Source of the DNA: Dysgonomonas sp. 520
GTDB taxonomy: Bacteria > Bacteroidota > Bacteroidia > Bacteroidales > Dysgonomonadaceae
Assembly (NCBI RefSeq): GCF_010501095.1
Contig: NZ_QVMP01000019.1
Location: forward strand, 1 to 64,000
Direction: 5' to 3'
DNA length: 64,000 nucleotides
The notes beneath the pieces were generated by a model. It did not search any database. It saw only the letters and a program-made list of their open reading frames with translations, and was not told where the DNA came from. Below are positions 17,357-21,882 of this stretch, in pieces. Made by a program: the position numbers and the translations under genes. Numbering within the stretch: the stretch's first letter is position 1; the number at the start of each line of letters is the position of its first letter.

Positions 17357-17854
17357 ATGAATATGAAAACTTTAGATTATCTTCATCTTGATGCAAATGC
17401 AACCGAAAAAGTAGTAAAAGGATTACAACAATTTTTAGCCGACTATCAGGTGTATTACACCAATTTGCGTGGATTCCACTGGAATATAAAAGGTAAGAAT
17501 TTCTTTACTCTGCATAGTAAATTTGAAGAAATGTATGACGATGCCGCTGAAAAAGTGGACGAAATAGCAGAACGCATTTTGATGTTAGGTGGCACTCCTG
17601 CCAATAAATTCAGCGATTACCTGAAAATATCAAAAGTAAAGGAAGTAGCCGGTGTTACCTGCGGTTGCGAAGCTGTTAAAAATATCCTTGAGACTTTAGG
17701 ATTATTGATTGAAGACGAAAGAAAATTGCTCGAATTGGCAGGTGACGCAAACGATGAGTCTACCGTATCTCTTTTGAGTGATTATCTGAAAGAACAAGAA
17801 AAAACCGTGTGGATGTTGGTCGCATACGCATCCGACGAAGAGTGCAATAAATAA
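17357..17854 (+). CDS. dps: Dps-family ferritin-like protein
   Basis: A 165-residue four-helix Dps protein that forms a dodecamer, oxidises and stores iron, and protects DNA under oxidative stress. The inter-subunit ferroxidase ligands are visible in FHWNIKGKNFFTLHSKFEEMYDDAAEKVDEIAERI. Two in-frame ATGs (17357 and 17363) are possible starts. It stands alone between its own upstream region and a terminator. OxyR-type regulation is usual in the order, but no operator is recognised here. Confidence 0.93.
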   Translation: MNMKTLDYLHLDANATEKVVKGLQQFLADYQVYYTNLRGFHWNIKGKNFFTLHSKFEEMYDDAAEKVDEIAERILMLGGTPANKFSDYLKISKVKEVAGVTCGCEAVKNILETLGLLIEDERKLLELAGDANDESTVSLLSDYLKEQEKTVWMLVAYASDEECNK

Positions 17855-18135: not shown

Positions 18136-19926
18136 ATGATTGACAATTTAAAAAATGTGCAACCAGACGCAAACTTCGACTGGGATGCTTACGAAAAAGG
18201 CGATTCTTATACAAGTAAAAGCCATGAAGAATTAGAAAAAACTTATGACCAATCGCTAAACAAAATAAGCGATAAAGAAGTGGTTATGGGTAAAGTAACT
18301 TCGATGAACAAACGTGAAGTTGTTGTTAACATCGGTTACAAATCGGATGGTGTGGTTTCTATGAACGAATTCCGCTACAATCCGGACCTTAAAGTTGGTG
18401 ATGAAGTAGAAGTTTACATCGAAAGCCAAGAAGACAAAAAAGGTCAATTGCTTCTATCTCACAAAAAAGCACGTGCTACACGTTCTTGGGATAGAGTGAA
18501 CGAAGCTCTTGAAAATGATGAAATCATTAAAGGTTACATCAAATGTCGCACTAAGGGTGGTATGATCGTTGACGTATTTGGTATCGAGGCGTTCTTGCCG
18601 GGATCTCAGATCGACGTTAAACCTATCCGTGACTACGATGTGTTTGTTGATAAAACAATGGAATTCAAAGTTGTTAAAATCAACCACGAATTCAAAAACG
18701 TTGTTGTATCTCACAAAGCGCTTATCGAAGCTGAGCTTGAACAACAAAAGAAAGATATTATCTCGAAACTGGAAAAAGGACAAGTGCTTGAAGGTACAGT
18801 TAAAAACATCACTTCGTATGGTGTGTTTATCGACCTTGGTGGCGTAGACGGACTTATCCACATCACAGACCTTTCTTGGGGACGTGTTCAGCATCCGGAA
18901 GAAGTGGTACAATTGGATCAAAAGATCAATGTTGTTATCCTTGACTTCGACGATGACAAAAAACGTATCGCTCTTGGCTTGAAACAACTTACTCCTCATC
19001 CTTGGGATGCATTGAGTGCTGACCTTAAAGTTGGTGACAAAGTGAAAGGTAAAGTTGTGGTTATGGCCGACTATGGTGCATTCATCGAAATTGCTCCGGG
19101 CGTAGAAGGTCTTATACACGTATCGGAAATGAGCTGGACTCAACATCTACGCAGTGCTCAAGACTTTATGTCTGTGGGTGACGAAGTAGAAGCTGTTGTT
19201 CTTACTCTTGACCGTGACGAACGTAAGATGTCTCTTGGTATCAAACAATTGAAACCGGATCCATGGGAAAATATCGAAGAAAGATATCCTGTTGGAAGCA
19301 AACATACAGCTAAAGTACGCAACTTCACTAACTTCGGTGTATTTGCCGAAATAGAAGAAGGTGTGGACGGACTTATCCACATTTCTGACTTGTCTTGGAC
19401 TAAGAAAATCAAACACCCAAGCGAGGTAACTCAAATTGGTGCTGATATTGATGTTCAGGTTCTTGAAATTGACAAGGATAACCGTCGTTTGAGTCTGGGA
19501 CACAAACAATTGGAAGAAAATCCTTGGGATGTATTTGAAACTATCTTTACAGTAGGATCGGTACACGAAGGAACAGTTGTTGAAATGGCAGATAAAGGTG
19601 CTGTGGTTTCTCTTCCTTACGGTGTTGAAGGTTTTGCAACTCCAAAACACTTGGTGAAAGAAGACGGCACTCAAGCTCAAGTAGATGAGAAACTTCAGTT
19701 CAAAGTGATTGAGTTCAACAAAGATTCTAAGAGAATCATTGTTTCTCACAGCAGAACTTTCGAAGACGAAAAAGCTGATGCTGCACCAGAAAAGAAGAAA
19801 AGAGCAACTAAGAAAGATAAAGAAGAATCTTCACAAGTGACTTCAACTTCAACAGAGAAAACAACTCTTGGAGATATCGAAGAATTGGCTGCTTTGAAAG
19901 AAAAACTTTCTGGAGAAAACAAGTAA
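18136..19926 (+). CDS. rpsA: 30S ribosomal protein S1
   Basis: mRNA-binding protein of the small subunit that assists initiation. 596 residues with six S1 (OB-fold) repeats starting near residues 49, 134, 219, 304, 391 and 478. The middle repeats are closest to each other (for example GVFIDLGGVDGLIHITDLSW). A Lys/Glu/Thr-rich tail of about 45 residues follows the last repeat. Codon choice differs from the surroundings (many CTT, CGT, ATC), as expected for a highly expressed gene. The ATG at 18136 has no Shine-Dalgarno match, normal for this phylum. Confidence 0.95.
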   Translation: MIDNLKNVQPDANFDWDAYEKGDSYTSKSHEELEKTYDQSLNKISDKEVVMGKVTSMNKREVVVNIGYKSDGVVSMNEFRYNPDLKVGDEVEVYIESQEDKKGQLLLSHKKARATRSWDRVNEALENDEIIKGYIKCRTKGGMIVDVFGIEAFLPGSQIDVKPIRDYDVFVDKTMEFKVVKINHEFKNVVVSHKALIEAELEQQKKDIISKLEKGQVLEGTVKNITSYGVFIDLGGVDGLIHITDLSWGRVQHPEEVVQLDQKINVVILDFDDDKKRIALGLKQLTPHPWDALSADLKVGDKVKGKVVVMADYGAFIEIAPGVEGLIHVSEMSWTQHLRSAQDFMSVGDEVEAVVLTLDRDERKMSLGIKQLKPDPWENIEERYPVGSKHTAKVRNFTNFGVFAEIEEGVDGLIHISDLSWTKKIKHPSEVTQIGADIDVQVLEIDKDNRRLSLGHKQLEENPWDVFETIFTVGSVHEGTVVEMADKGAVVSLPYGVEGFATPKHLVKEDGTQAQVDEKLQFKVIEFNKDSKRIIVSHSRTFEDEKADAAPEKKKRATKKDKEESSQVTSTSTEKTTLGDIEELAALKEKLSGENK

Positions 19927-19985: not shown

Positions 19986-20058
19986 TATATCTGAATATAT
20001 CGAATTAGATTTTTTATTATTTTTGAGGATATTGAATGTTTATGGCAGAAATCTGACT

Positions 20059-20673
20059 ATGAAAAAATATTTTGTATTCTTACTGTTAATAATGTCTACT
20101 CCGCTTCTAGGGCAAACTTATTATTATAAACAAGTAAATATTGTATATAGTAATGGTCAAAAAGTTTCGGGAGACGGAACCGGTCAGTTTGTAACGTTTA
20201 GTAACAAAGGGTGTTACGATTCAAATATAGAAGGATATACAGTAAAGAATGGTTTTCTGGAATATAAAGGGATTGATGATGGTATATACGTTTATTATGG
20301 AACTAGTTATTGGGGAACATGCAATTACTATTTCTCATCAGACAAAGGAAGGCTTAATGTGAAAGAGCAATCTACGGGTAATACGTATGTCTATCAGCGT
20401 ATGACACCCCCAAATGGAGTGAAAACATCATCTAAAATAAAAAATATTGCACCCAATCCATCCCCAATGCCTTTGCCTAATCCAATGCCAAATCCCTCTC
20501 CCAGACCTGCACCTAATCGGGTGCAACAATGCAAAGGTTGTAGAGGCTCTGGGTTATGTAGTATGTGTGAAGGAAAAGGATTTTGGAAAAAAGATGGAAA
20601 GATTTTCTCTTGTTCGAGATGCTATGGAGATGGTAAATGCAGAGTTTGTTATGGTAAAGGTGTTATTAAATGA
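20059..20673 (+). CDS. Exported protein with four DnaJ-type zinc knuckles
   Basis: Start placed at ATG 20059, where a signal peptide begins (MKKYFVFLLLIMSTPLLGQ). The frame extends further up only through a TTG. 204 residues. The mature N-terminal domain (about 20-115) has no family I recognise. A Pro/Asn-rich linker (about 130-155) follows, then a C-terminal module with four CxxCxGxG motifs (CKGCRGSG, CSMCEGKG, CSRCYGDG, CRVCYGKG), the layout of the DnaJ zinc-finger domain. There is no J domain. The next gene encodes a relative of its N-terminal domain. Function is unknown; a zinc-binding or redox/chaperone role in the envelope is speculation. Confidence 0.75.
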   Translation: MKKYFVFLLLIMSTPLLGQTYYYKQVNIVYSNGQKVSGDGTGQFVTFSNKGCYDSNIEGYTVKNGFLEYKGIDDGIYVYYGTSYWGTCNYYFSSDKGRLNVKEQSTGNTYVYQRMTPPNGVKTSSKIKNIAPNPSPMPLPNPMPNPSPRPAPNRVQQCKGCRGSGLCSMCEGKGFWKKDGKIFSCSRCYGDGKCRVCYGKGVIK

Positions 20674-20699
20674 TTTTGTAATTTAAATAATATATATAT

Positions 20700-21167
20700 A
20701 TGAAAAAAATAATTCTATTGTGCTGTATTATCGGTACTTGTATATTTAATATGCAATCCCAGACATATTATAAATATATAGAGTCTGTTGATGAGAATGG
20801 TGTAAAGGAGAAATTAACCAATATTGTTGGGGTATATATTGTTTTCACCGATAACGGTTGTTATGAATCTGATCAAAATGGATATATAAAAAAATTCCCT
20901 GATGGCTCAACAAGTTTTTATAGCTATAGGTATGAAGGAATGAGTAATGGATTACATGTTTATGTTAAAGGTGATACCCACTATAATTTGTACGGACAAC
21001 AGAGTTTTCATCCAACCGGATATCTATATTTTTCGAAAGATTATAATCGCATAAACTCTCGAGCTTCTGAAGAATTTGTAAGAAGATATGGTGGCCTTTT
21101 GAAAAATAAAACACATGTTTATCAGAAAGGTACACCTCCGGGCAAAGCACCGCAAGAGTTTTACTAA
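20700..21167 (+). CDS. Exported paralogue of the preceding gene's N-terminal domain
   Basis: 155 residues. A signal peptide (MKKIILLCCIIGTCIFNMQSQ) is followed by a single domain. It aligns by eye with the mature domain upstream: TYYKYIESVDENG versus TYYYKQVNIVYSNG, NGCYESDQNGY versus KGCYDSNIEGY, a later SKDYNRIN versus SDKGRLN, and the ending HVYQKGTPP versus YVYQRMTPP. It lacks the proline linker and zinc knuckles. The genes are 26 bases apart and probably co-transcribed. The fold and role are not recognised. Confidence 0.7.
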   Translation: MKKIILLCCIIGTCIFNMQSQTYYKYIESVDENGVKEKLTNIVGVYIVFTDNGCYESDQNGYIKKFPDGSTSFYSYRYEGMSNGLHVYVKGDTHYNLYGQQSFHPTGYLYFSKDYNRINSRASEEFVRRYGGLLKNKTHVYQKGTPPGKAPQEFY

Positions 21168-21174
21168 TATCTAA

Positions 21175-21882
21175 TCAATCCAATATTTTCATCAATTCAT
21201 CAATTCTGCTTATTTCATAAGTAGGCTTGATATCTTTAATCTCTTGATGGTGTGGATTAAACCAAACCTGATCAATGCCACAGGCATGTGCGCCTTTTAT
21301 GTCGGTATCCAGCATATCGCCAATCATTAATGATTCTTCTTTCTCCGCATTTGCTTTTTTCAGGGCATAATCAAAAATTTTAGGATTCGGTTTGTTAACT
21401 CCGGCTTCGTCGGAAAGGATAATCTGGTCGAAAAAGTGATACAAACCCGATTGTTTGAGTTTGGTATATTGAACTTCTTTAAATCCGTTGGTGATAATAT
21501 GTAATTTGTACTCTCCATTTAGTTTGTTCAGCAAGTCGATTGCTCCATCAATCGTTTTTCTCTTCATGGAGGTTTTTGCCATATAGTCGGAATTTATTTG
21601 CTCTGACTTTTCTATGCTGAAAGCATTGTGTTTTTCGAACAAAGTGTAGAACCGAGATCTTGTGAGTTCTTCCTTTTTCAGCAAACCTTTGCTGTATTGA
21701 TCCCAAAGGCGATTGTTGTGTTTTAGGTAAACCGTATAGAAATTATCAAATGAAGAATAATAGTTTTCGAAATTATAAATCAGATAAATCTCTTTCATAG
21801 ACTCTAAGCTGTTGGCTGCTGTGTCCCAAAGAGTATCATCCAGATCGAAAAATAAGTTCGTGTATTTCTTTTTCATAGTCAT
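21175..21882 (-). CDS. YjjG-type HAD hydrolase (nucleotide 5'-phosphatase)
   Basis: A 235-residue cytoplasmic HAD phosphatase. Motif I FFDLDDTLWDT with the nucleophile Asp, motif II HIITNGF, the conserved Lys in motif III, and motif IV MIGDMLDTDIKGAHACGIDQVWF. The helical cap and overall order match the YjjG family, which dephosphorylates non-canonical pyrimidine nucleotides and so cleans the nucleotide pool. It lies downstream of the coiled-coil lipoprotein gene, whose terminator separates the two. Confidence 0.87.
   Translation of the reverse strand: MTMKKKYTNLFFDLDDTLWDTAANSLESMKEIYLIYNFENYYSSFDNFYTVYLKHNNRLWDQYSKGLLKKEELTRSRFYTLFEKHNAFSIEKSEQINSDYMAKTSMKRKTIDGAIDLLNKLNGEYKLHIITNGFKEVQYTKLKQSGLYHFFDQIILSDEAGVNKPNPKIFDYALKKANAEKEESLMIGDMLDTDIKGAHACGIDQVWFNPHHQEIKDIKPTYEISRIDELMKILD

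Follow-up and report, generated by a model that had tools for sequence, protein, structure and literature searches.

DnaJ-type zinc domains are best known from cytoplasmic or plastid chaperones, and the question raised by this locus is what such a domain would be doing at the end of a protein that bears a signal-like peptide. In the window, the whole stretch of 64,000 nucleotides of Dysgonomonas sp. 520 analysed here, two genes of the same strand, 26 bp apart, encode exported-type proteins, called T (tailed) and N (tailless). Both reading frames are confirmed at the coordinates given in a preliminary description made from the sequence alone (ORF list), and both N-termini are hydrophobic and signal-like (maximum 10-residue Kyte-Doolittle values of 2.61 for T and 2.95 for N); signal peptides were judged throughout from hydropathy and by eye, and the cleavage site of T is approximate. 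As that description also had it, T alone of the pair continues through a Pro/Asn linker into four CxxCxGxG knuckles, and a J domain is absent, with no Pfam J-domain match in T or N up to E 10. The parts of the pair are collected in Table 1.

Table 1. Features of the T/N gene pair in the window (forward-strand positions; residue limits within T are approximate where marked "about").
Feature	Position	Strand	Basis or remark
Gene T (tailed)	20059..20673	+	ATG 20059 to stop 20673; exported-type, 204 aa
Signal-like peptide of T, about residues 1-18	20059..20112	+	Hydropathy, eye
Mature domain of T, predicted lipocalin/FABP-like beta-barrel, about residues 19-118	20113..20412	+	Alignments, model
Pro/Asn/Ser-rich linker of T, about residues 119-157, predicted disordered	20413..20529	+	Composition, pLDDT
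Zinc-knuckle tail of T (putative), residues 158-204, 47 residues			ORF, alignments
Knuckles 1+2, CxxCxGxG-x-CxxCxGxG	20530..20579	+	Pattern match, alignment
Knuckles 3+4, CxxCxGxG-x-CxxCxGxG, stop three residues on	20611..20660	+	Pattern match, alignment
Gene N (tailless)	20700..21167	+	Exported-type, 155 aa, paralogue of T mature domain

In the model of T, the signal-like peptide, the strand-rich domain, the linker and the tail together account for the whole chain. Alignments give the mature domain a family signature, KGCYDS, at residues 50-55. The fraction of P, N, S, T, G and Q across residues 113-157 is 0.64, pLDDT falls below 50 at residues 130-152, within the linker, and N ends shortly past the point that matches the linker's start. 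All four knuckles are exact CxxCxGxG, with one residue between the first and second, ten between the second and third, one between the third and fourth, and three before the stop. Around the pair, as read by eye, lie a gene for a long S1-repeat-type protein upstream on the same strand (18136-19926), a Dps-type gene (iron storage; 17357-17854) one gene away upstream, and a convergent gene for a HAD-type hydrolase downstream (21175-21882). A TAnnTTTG box, the Bacteroidota-type -7 element, occupies 20018-20025 and starts 41 bp 5' of gene T; as the + strand of the window holds 53 such sites, it is weak evidence.

That the two mature domains align beyond chance, as had been supposed, emerges from three comparisons. 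The T/N pair SIGNIFICANCE shares 32% identity in BLASTP (E 5e-10, 149 columns, signal peptides included); the mature parts alone reach a Smith-Waterman score of 129, where 2000 shuffles average 37.0 (s.d. 7.0) and peak at 78; and profile-profile comparison gives E 2.8e-21 over 118 columns, signal peptides again included. Chance likeness is thus ruled out. The preliminary description had suggested a duplication with gain or loss of the tail, of which the paralogy stands, while a recent local event probably does not: in a tree of 17 rows, the 11 tailed-type domains and six tailless paralogues (from the window, L006, L179, L180, L181 and L029) fall on opposite sides, a weakly supported split (59/86) that disfavours recent duplication at the locus. 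This tree omits the partner of L183 and the four second-group upstream partners of L182, L026, L031 and L035, described below. Our reading of these alignments is an old duplication retained as a pair, with the partner replaced in some lineages. A third match in the window's genome, at E 0.03, has two internal stops.

The pair is sporadic but recurrent in distant relatives, to judge from the searches of genomes and contigs. A one-sequence search found 2 of 61 genomes, the window's own among them, and the profile search of the shared domain that the preliminary description had suggested returned rare homologues: 16 of 101 genomes of the family match at E<=0.01, convincingly in two (the window's genome and G032). 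The remaining 14 matches (13 in frames of about 1000 codons and one in a 272-codon frame, at E 4.3e-4 or worse) were dropped as probable signal-peptide noise, since all align from position 1. In the order sample 7 of 393 genomes match at E<=1e-4, the window's own included, and G187, G288 and G375 do so through the tail or the tail and linker only; a T-type search of the phylum sample returned 1 of 395, the genome itself. Seven loci came from a search of named contigs, belonging to Dysgonomonas alginatilytica, an Alistipes MAG, two Prevotellaceae, an uncultured Bacteroidales, a Bacteroidaceae MAG and a truncated Prevotella copy, of which D. alginatilytica and one of the Prevotellaceae were in the query alignment and hence found by construction. 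Among 72,556 plasmid records there is one match at E<=0.01, the mobilizable 7.9-kb pRGF00008 (HG796775.1), which is not mentioned by name in the literature searched and whose accession falls in the range given for a rat-cecum metamobilome (PMC3913684). Phage records gave no match to the T family, the 127 pattern matches in viral contigs yielded no confirmed relative, and a phage origin was rejected on both counts; for the four proteins compared with PHROGs, every match is at E 0.016 or worse.

Eleven loci carry an intact T-type gene (the window, L178 = L005, L179, L180 = L025, L181, L182, L183, L026, L029, L031 and L035), and in 10 of them a small exported-type gene adjoins it on the same strand, at distances from a 20-bp overlap to a 31-bp gap. 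The exception is L178 (D. alginatilytica), whose T-type gene borders the end of its contig; the N-type gene L006 sits at the edge of a second contig from that genome. Five loci have the partner downstream (window, L179, L180, L181, L029), the other five upstream (L182, L183, L026, L031, L035). The downstream partners of the window, L179, L180 and L181, together with L006, are paralogues of the barrel domain discussed below, with shuffle z values of 2.5-15.7, most above 5, against the 11 tailed-type proteins. The L029 partner is weaker (z 0.7-3.3 against tailed-type proteins, 6.2-6.9 against N of the window), as is that of L183 (reaching 10.1 in a single comparison, and 6.1-7.4 with N of the window). 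The upstream partners of L182, L026, L031 and L035 form a loose second group, joined mainly via L035, with z<=4.6 to the barrel. L183 keeps the pair without the tail. Together, the differing flanks and the occurrence on a plasmid are consistent with movement of the pair as a cassette. The truncated tailed-gene copy of a rumen Prevotella MAG (L184:5968-6291), omitted from the 11-locus comparison, shows no knuckle tail within the 750 bases read and is followed by another exported-type gene.

Structure prediction, likewise suggested by the preliminary description, gave barrel-like models of both proteins. AlphaFold modelled T from 7 sequences (mean pLDDT 73.0, pTM 0.52; strands at 19-115) and N from 6 (73.6 and 0.65), and in both models the strands succeed one another much as they do in lipocalins or fatty-acid-binding proteins, an order that suits an antiparallel barrel of 8-10 strands. 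Foldseek returned no match at E<=0.001 for either, the best being 4.2e-3 for T (an entry of the LolA-LolB complex, TM 0.27-0.30) and 5.6e-2 for N. In VIA-align no family reaches Z>=8 for either model; the designed barrel 6czg_A (Z 7.0, rmsd 3.4, 83 aligned) for T and 8ehc_B (Z 6.8, rmsd 3.2, 86 aligned) for N are each tied with many barrels, and most of the listed matches are small beta-barrels resembling lipocalins or FABPs. These include Bacteroidota lipocalin-like proteins (4qrl) and potempin E (8ehc), small barrels such as T and N are predicted to be, of middling structural similarity (VIA Z 5.4-6.8), for which, unlike T, no zinc tail is noted. A T-family profile finds no PDB sequence matching the barrel part at E up to 1. 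With no significant Foldseek match and tied Z values of at most 7.0, a lipocalin/FABP-like barrel is a plausible rather than proven fold for the mature domain, the fold class being likely from the models, and no ligand is indicated.

The tail occurs in two forms among the tailed-type homologues, one with eight Cys (window, L179, L180) and one with six Cys and an HxH motif (L178, L182, L026, L029, L031, L035). In the second, found in 6 of the 11, knuckle 2 is absent and HxH follows the third CxxC, ahead of the last knuckle. Profiles of the two forms align with a moderate probability of 79.7%. In seven aligned 8-Cys tails, from five N-terminal contexts, all eight Cys are invariant and Gly positions vary in several, with GxG parts lost singly in L179, L043, L045 and L047; these seven are drawn from nine exported tails read, the longer L040 and L181 tails being left out. 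In nine aligned 6-Cys tails, three of them closely related, neither the six CxxC Cys nor one of the His varies, and every tail has HxH; the L182 and L026 tails have two extra Cys each. The L181 tail (L181:5917-6657, a Prevotellaceae MAG), a variant of the 8-Cys form, is longer and has 14 Cys, nearly double the usual number. Degeneracy of the knuckles in homologues, which the preliminary description had held to count against its reading, is therefore found in part: the eight Cys hold wherever the 8-Cys form was aligned, whereas knuckle 2 is lost in 6 of the 11 homologues, L183 is tailless and some GxG parts are gone. Moreover, L178 and L181, neighbouring rows of the tree (93/89), bear different forms, so that tails seem to have been replaced over time.

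The exchange of a Cys pair for a His pair fits a metal site rather than a disulfide, and the replacement of knuckle 2 by His favours metal over disulfides as far as aligned residues can tell. The T tail probably binds zinc, given its conserved ligand pattern. Searches of the window's genome (99.65% complete, 68 contigs) found no match to DsbB or VKOR at E<=0.01; of 14 control genomes, the same searches matched 6 and 3, respectively, and since the control Bacteroides ihuae is also without a match, the absence is not special to the window's genome. The His form together with the missing DsbB and VKOR disfavours a disulfide-bonded tail, and other envelope oxidants may exist beside these two.

The DnaJ cysteine-rich domain (PF00684; 1exk) has four CxxCxGxG knuckles in the same order as the 8-Cys tail. 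A profile of that tail matches the DnaJ chain 1exk_A at E 3.9e-5 over all four knuckles (0.021 as a single stretch), and the next chains belong to other proteins, at E 0.0044 or worse. The spacers of 1exk are longer, with 8- and 5-residue insertions in the alignment where the 8-Cys tail has one residue between knuckles 1 and 2 and between knuckles 3 and 4, and T differs from DnaJ in being of exported type and without a J domain. Against PF00684 the window's tail scores 21.3 bits, below the cut-off of 32.7. A search of the genome with the DnaJ central domain gave a single match at E<=0.001, in a 381-codon frame on another contig, taken as an ordinary DnaJ. For DUF7895 (PF25433), the tail alone reaches 28.7 bits, above the cut-off of 27, and covers positions 2-25 of 75, that is, the first knuckle pair only, full-length T falling below the cut-off at 25.3; six of the seven aligned tails match at E<=0.1. 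Pfam and NCBIfam models thus cover such tails in part only.

A DnaJ-like zinc module outside the cytoplasm had been called unusual in the preliminary description. The exported-type tail is there as described, and it is no one-off, since 11 more proteins of exported type (WG, MORN, DUF7477 and unrecognised) finish in such a tail. A DNA pattern for the knuckle dyad has two matches in the window's genome, both in T, and none for the reversed control; across 295 genomes of the order it has 19, against one for the reversed control, so that chance knuckles are ruled out. The dyad is found in 10 of these genomes, six times as the C-terminal tail of an exported-type protein (the window, L040 with MORN, L043, L045, the WG-like L047, whose WG score is below cut-off, and the barrel L048 = L025), twice in a cytosol-type protein and twice (L044, L046) in no plausible protein. 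The dyad alone is no signature of the T family, because it is common in viral contigs, where at least 120 stretches carry it. A 6-Cys profile gave 10 matches in 9 of 314 genomes, a sample overlapping the 295: three of DUF7477 type (Pfam-checked in one, L027), three barrels, two WG proteins, an ordinary DnaJ (L193) and L191, which has no recognised N-terminal domain and HxxH in place of HxH. L043 and L027 show no firm relation (E 0.014, in part from the tail). Two tail-only matches, an ordinary DnaJ and a multiheme-type protein, were discarded by eye. The tails of L043, L045 and L179, although they stand behind different N-terminal parts, also agree in their flanks, with YGY or HGY before knuckle 1, Pro-Tyr in the middle and K-x-YG after the last knuckle, which suggests shuffling of the whole module. 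Distributed in this way, the tail resembles a module put to repeated use outside the cytoplasm.

For T and N themselves, the reading we favour, while holding it at a little below even chances, is that two exported barrels travel as a cassette in which T carries, on a flexible tether, a zinc clamp for docking a partner protein. T and N would act jointly, either in the periplasm or at the cell surface, with a ligand or partner bound by each barrel, and the product of the partner gene would share the task of T. The tail would fold round two metal ions, through Cys4 and Cys4 here and through Cys4 and Cys2His2 in relatives, and on its linker it could serve as a second, protein-binding clamp, docking another envelope protein, or N, beside the barrel. 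No Hsp70 step is expected, since there is no J domain. Weighing against this reading are the four partners of doubtful relation to the barrel, the tailless pair of L183, the truncated L184 copy, the lack of a significant Foldseek match, the drop of the 1exk match when scored as a single stretch, the PF00684 score below cut-off, and closely similar knuckle pairs in L039, L042, L195 and L197, proteins that have no clear signal peptide.

Chloroplast BSD2/ZnJ2, ZnJ6 and PSA2 (PF25436) offer a close parallel for a DnaJ-type zinc domain outside a full DnaJ, and T shares with the BSD2/ZnJ proteins four knuckles without a J domain, as seen by pattern, Pfam and alignment; PF25436 (BSD2_CRD) is not among the matches of T, N or the seven aligned tails, and the descriptions compared mention no beta-barrel, tandem partner or His form. 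ZnJ6, J-less and with four CxxCxGxG-type motifs, is reported to bind zinc, hold clients and oxidise (PMC7865324); ZnJ2 is likewise reported to be a zinc-binding holdase, and in a refolding assay also to cooperate with DnaK (PMC5818400). By analogy with these proteins, a domain of this kind can act on clients alone, and their chaperone activity lends something to the view that T is a periplasmic holdase or thiol-disulfide chaperone, whose zinc tail would bind unfolded or reduced clients while the barrel recruits it to a place. We consider this unlikely: a gene convincing in two of 101 genomes of the family does not look like a housekeeping chaperone, part of any thiol active site would be missing from the His-for-Cys form, and no DsbB or VKOR was found for coupling. 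Docking is preferred to chaperoning because the genes are rare and patchy. An exported, modular version with a natural Cys-to-His swap and a partner gene would allow the role of the domain to be tested without Hsp70.

In 21 of 21 tailed proteins checked (10 barrels and 11 others, counting L196 from outside the order and leaving out L195 and L197), the chain ends 6-12 residues past the last CxxC and N-terminal hydrophobicity is 2.47-3.31, whereas two cytosol-type controls have neither a hydrophobic N-terminus nor a tail at the chain end. A last element placed after a linker in all these signal-bearing proteins, behind several different N-terminal parts, could be a C-terminal sorting or anchoring signal of Bacteroidales exported proteins, read by a dedicated machinery. 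Sorting tails normally have many clients. Here clients are few per genome, with T only in the window's genome (8-Cys pattern; no 6-Cys match at E<=1e-5) and three in the richest genome read (G210). No type IX secretion C-terminal-domain model, which such a domain might escape, is among the NCBIfam matches of T up to E 10; these include a weak one (E 0.13) to the N-terminus of a PorU family over residues 1-55. A sorting role is accordingly rated as quite unlikely, and docking is preferred to it because few clients were found per genome.

Two further readings are improbable to a like degree. As a metal scavenger or buffer, the tail would capture zinc outside the cell for the barrels to handle or deliver, which the 14 Cys of the L181 tail and the nearby Dps-type gene might favour; no metal transporter was seen by eye among the ORFs adjoining the pair or in the relatives' flanks read, and the tails are constrained in Cys spacing, not merely Cys-rich. 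An exported inhibitor or competition cassette, such as a protease inhibitor or an effector with immunity partner, would be fast-evolving and mobile, in keeping with a patchy, divergent and once plasmid-borne family and with potempin E, a small, exported inhibitor of proteases, which shares the tied top rank for N, but those Z values lie within the VIA-align background range, no protease or toxin gene adjoins the pair by eye, and PADLOC, over four proteins scanned, gave nothing better than E 0.029 (T at best E 0.15, N none).

Extended from the pair to the tails at large, the docking reading becomes a more tentative proposal: that Bacteroidales possess a previously undescribed, swappable C-terminal zinc domain (Cys8 or Cys6-His2), DnaJ-derived or converged, that serves exported binding proteins of barrel, WG, MORN or DUF7477 type as a general module for docking, with envelope thiols staying reduced. 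None of the literature matches listed, judged by titles and abstract openings in a search with most subscription journals outside its scope, concerns an exported DnaJ-type zinc tail in this order. The T tail would test the stability of zinc-thiolate sites in an envelope for which the genome gives no sign of DsbB or VKOR, and a tail family would annotate a group of exported proteins now covered in part by Pfam and NCBIfam.

The survey for further copies and tails that the preliminary description had proposed yielded both a recurrent pair and the 11 further exported-type carriers. Two knuckle proteins of the cytosol type (L039:600-2093 and L042:1408-2892), of about 500 aa, have some fifteen CxxC pairs, many of them CxxCxGxG; unlike in DnaJ, a long knuckle-free C-terminal part follows the CxxC array, in which the knuckles are internal, and L039 matches BSD2_CRD above cut-off in Pfam. 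A search of the phylum sample for the tail matched 4 of 247 genomes, the window's own and those of L195, a protein without signal peptide whose knuckles lie in its N-terminal part, of L197, a short frame with a C-terminal tail and no clear signal, and of L196. The last of these (L196:1479-1841), from outside the order, is a short lipoprotein-type protein that ends in a closely similar 8-Cys tail.
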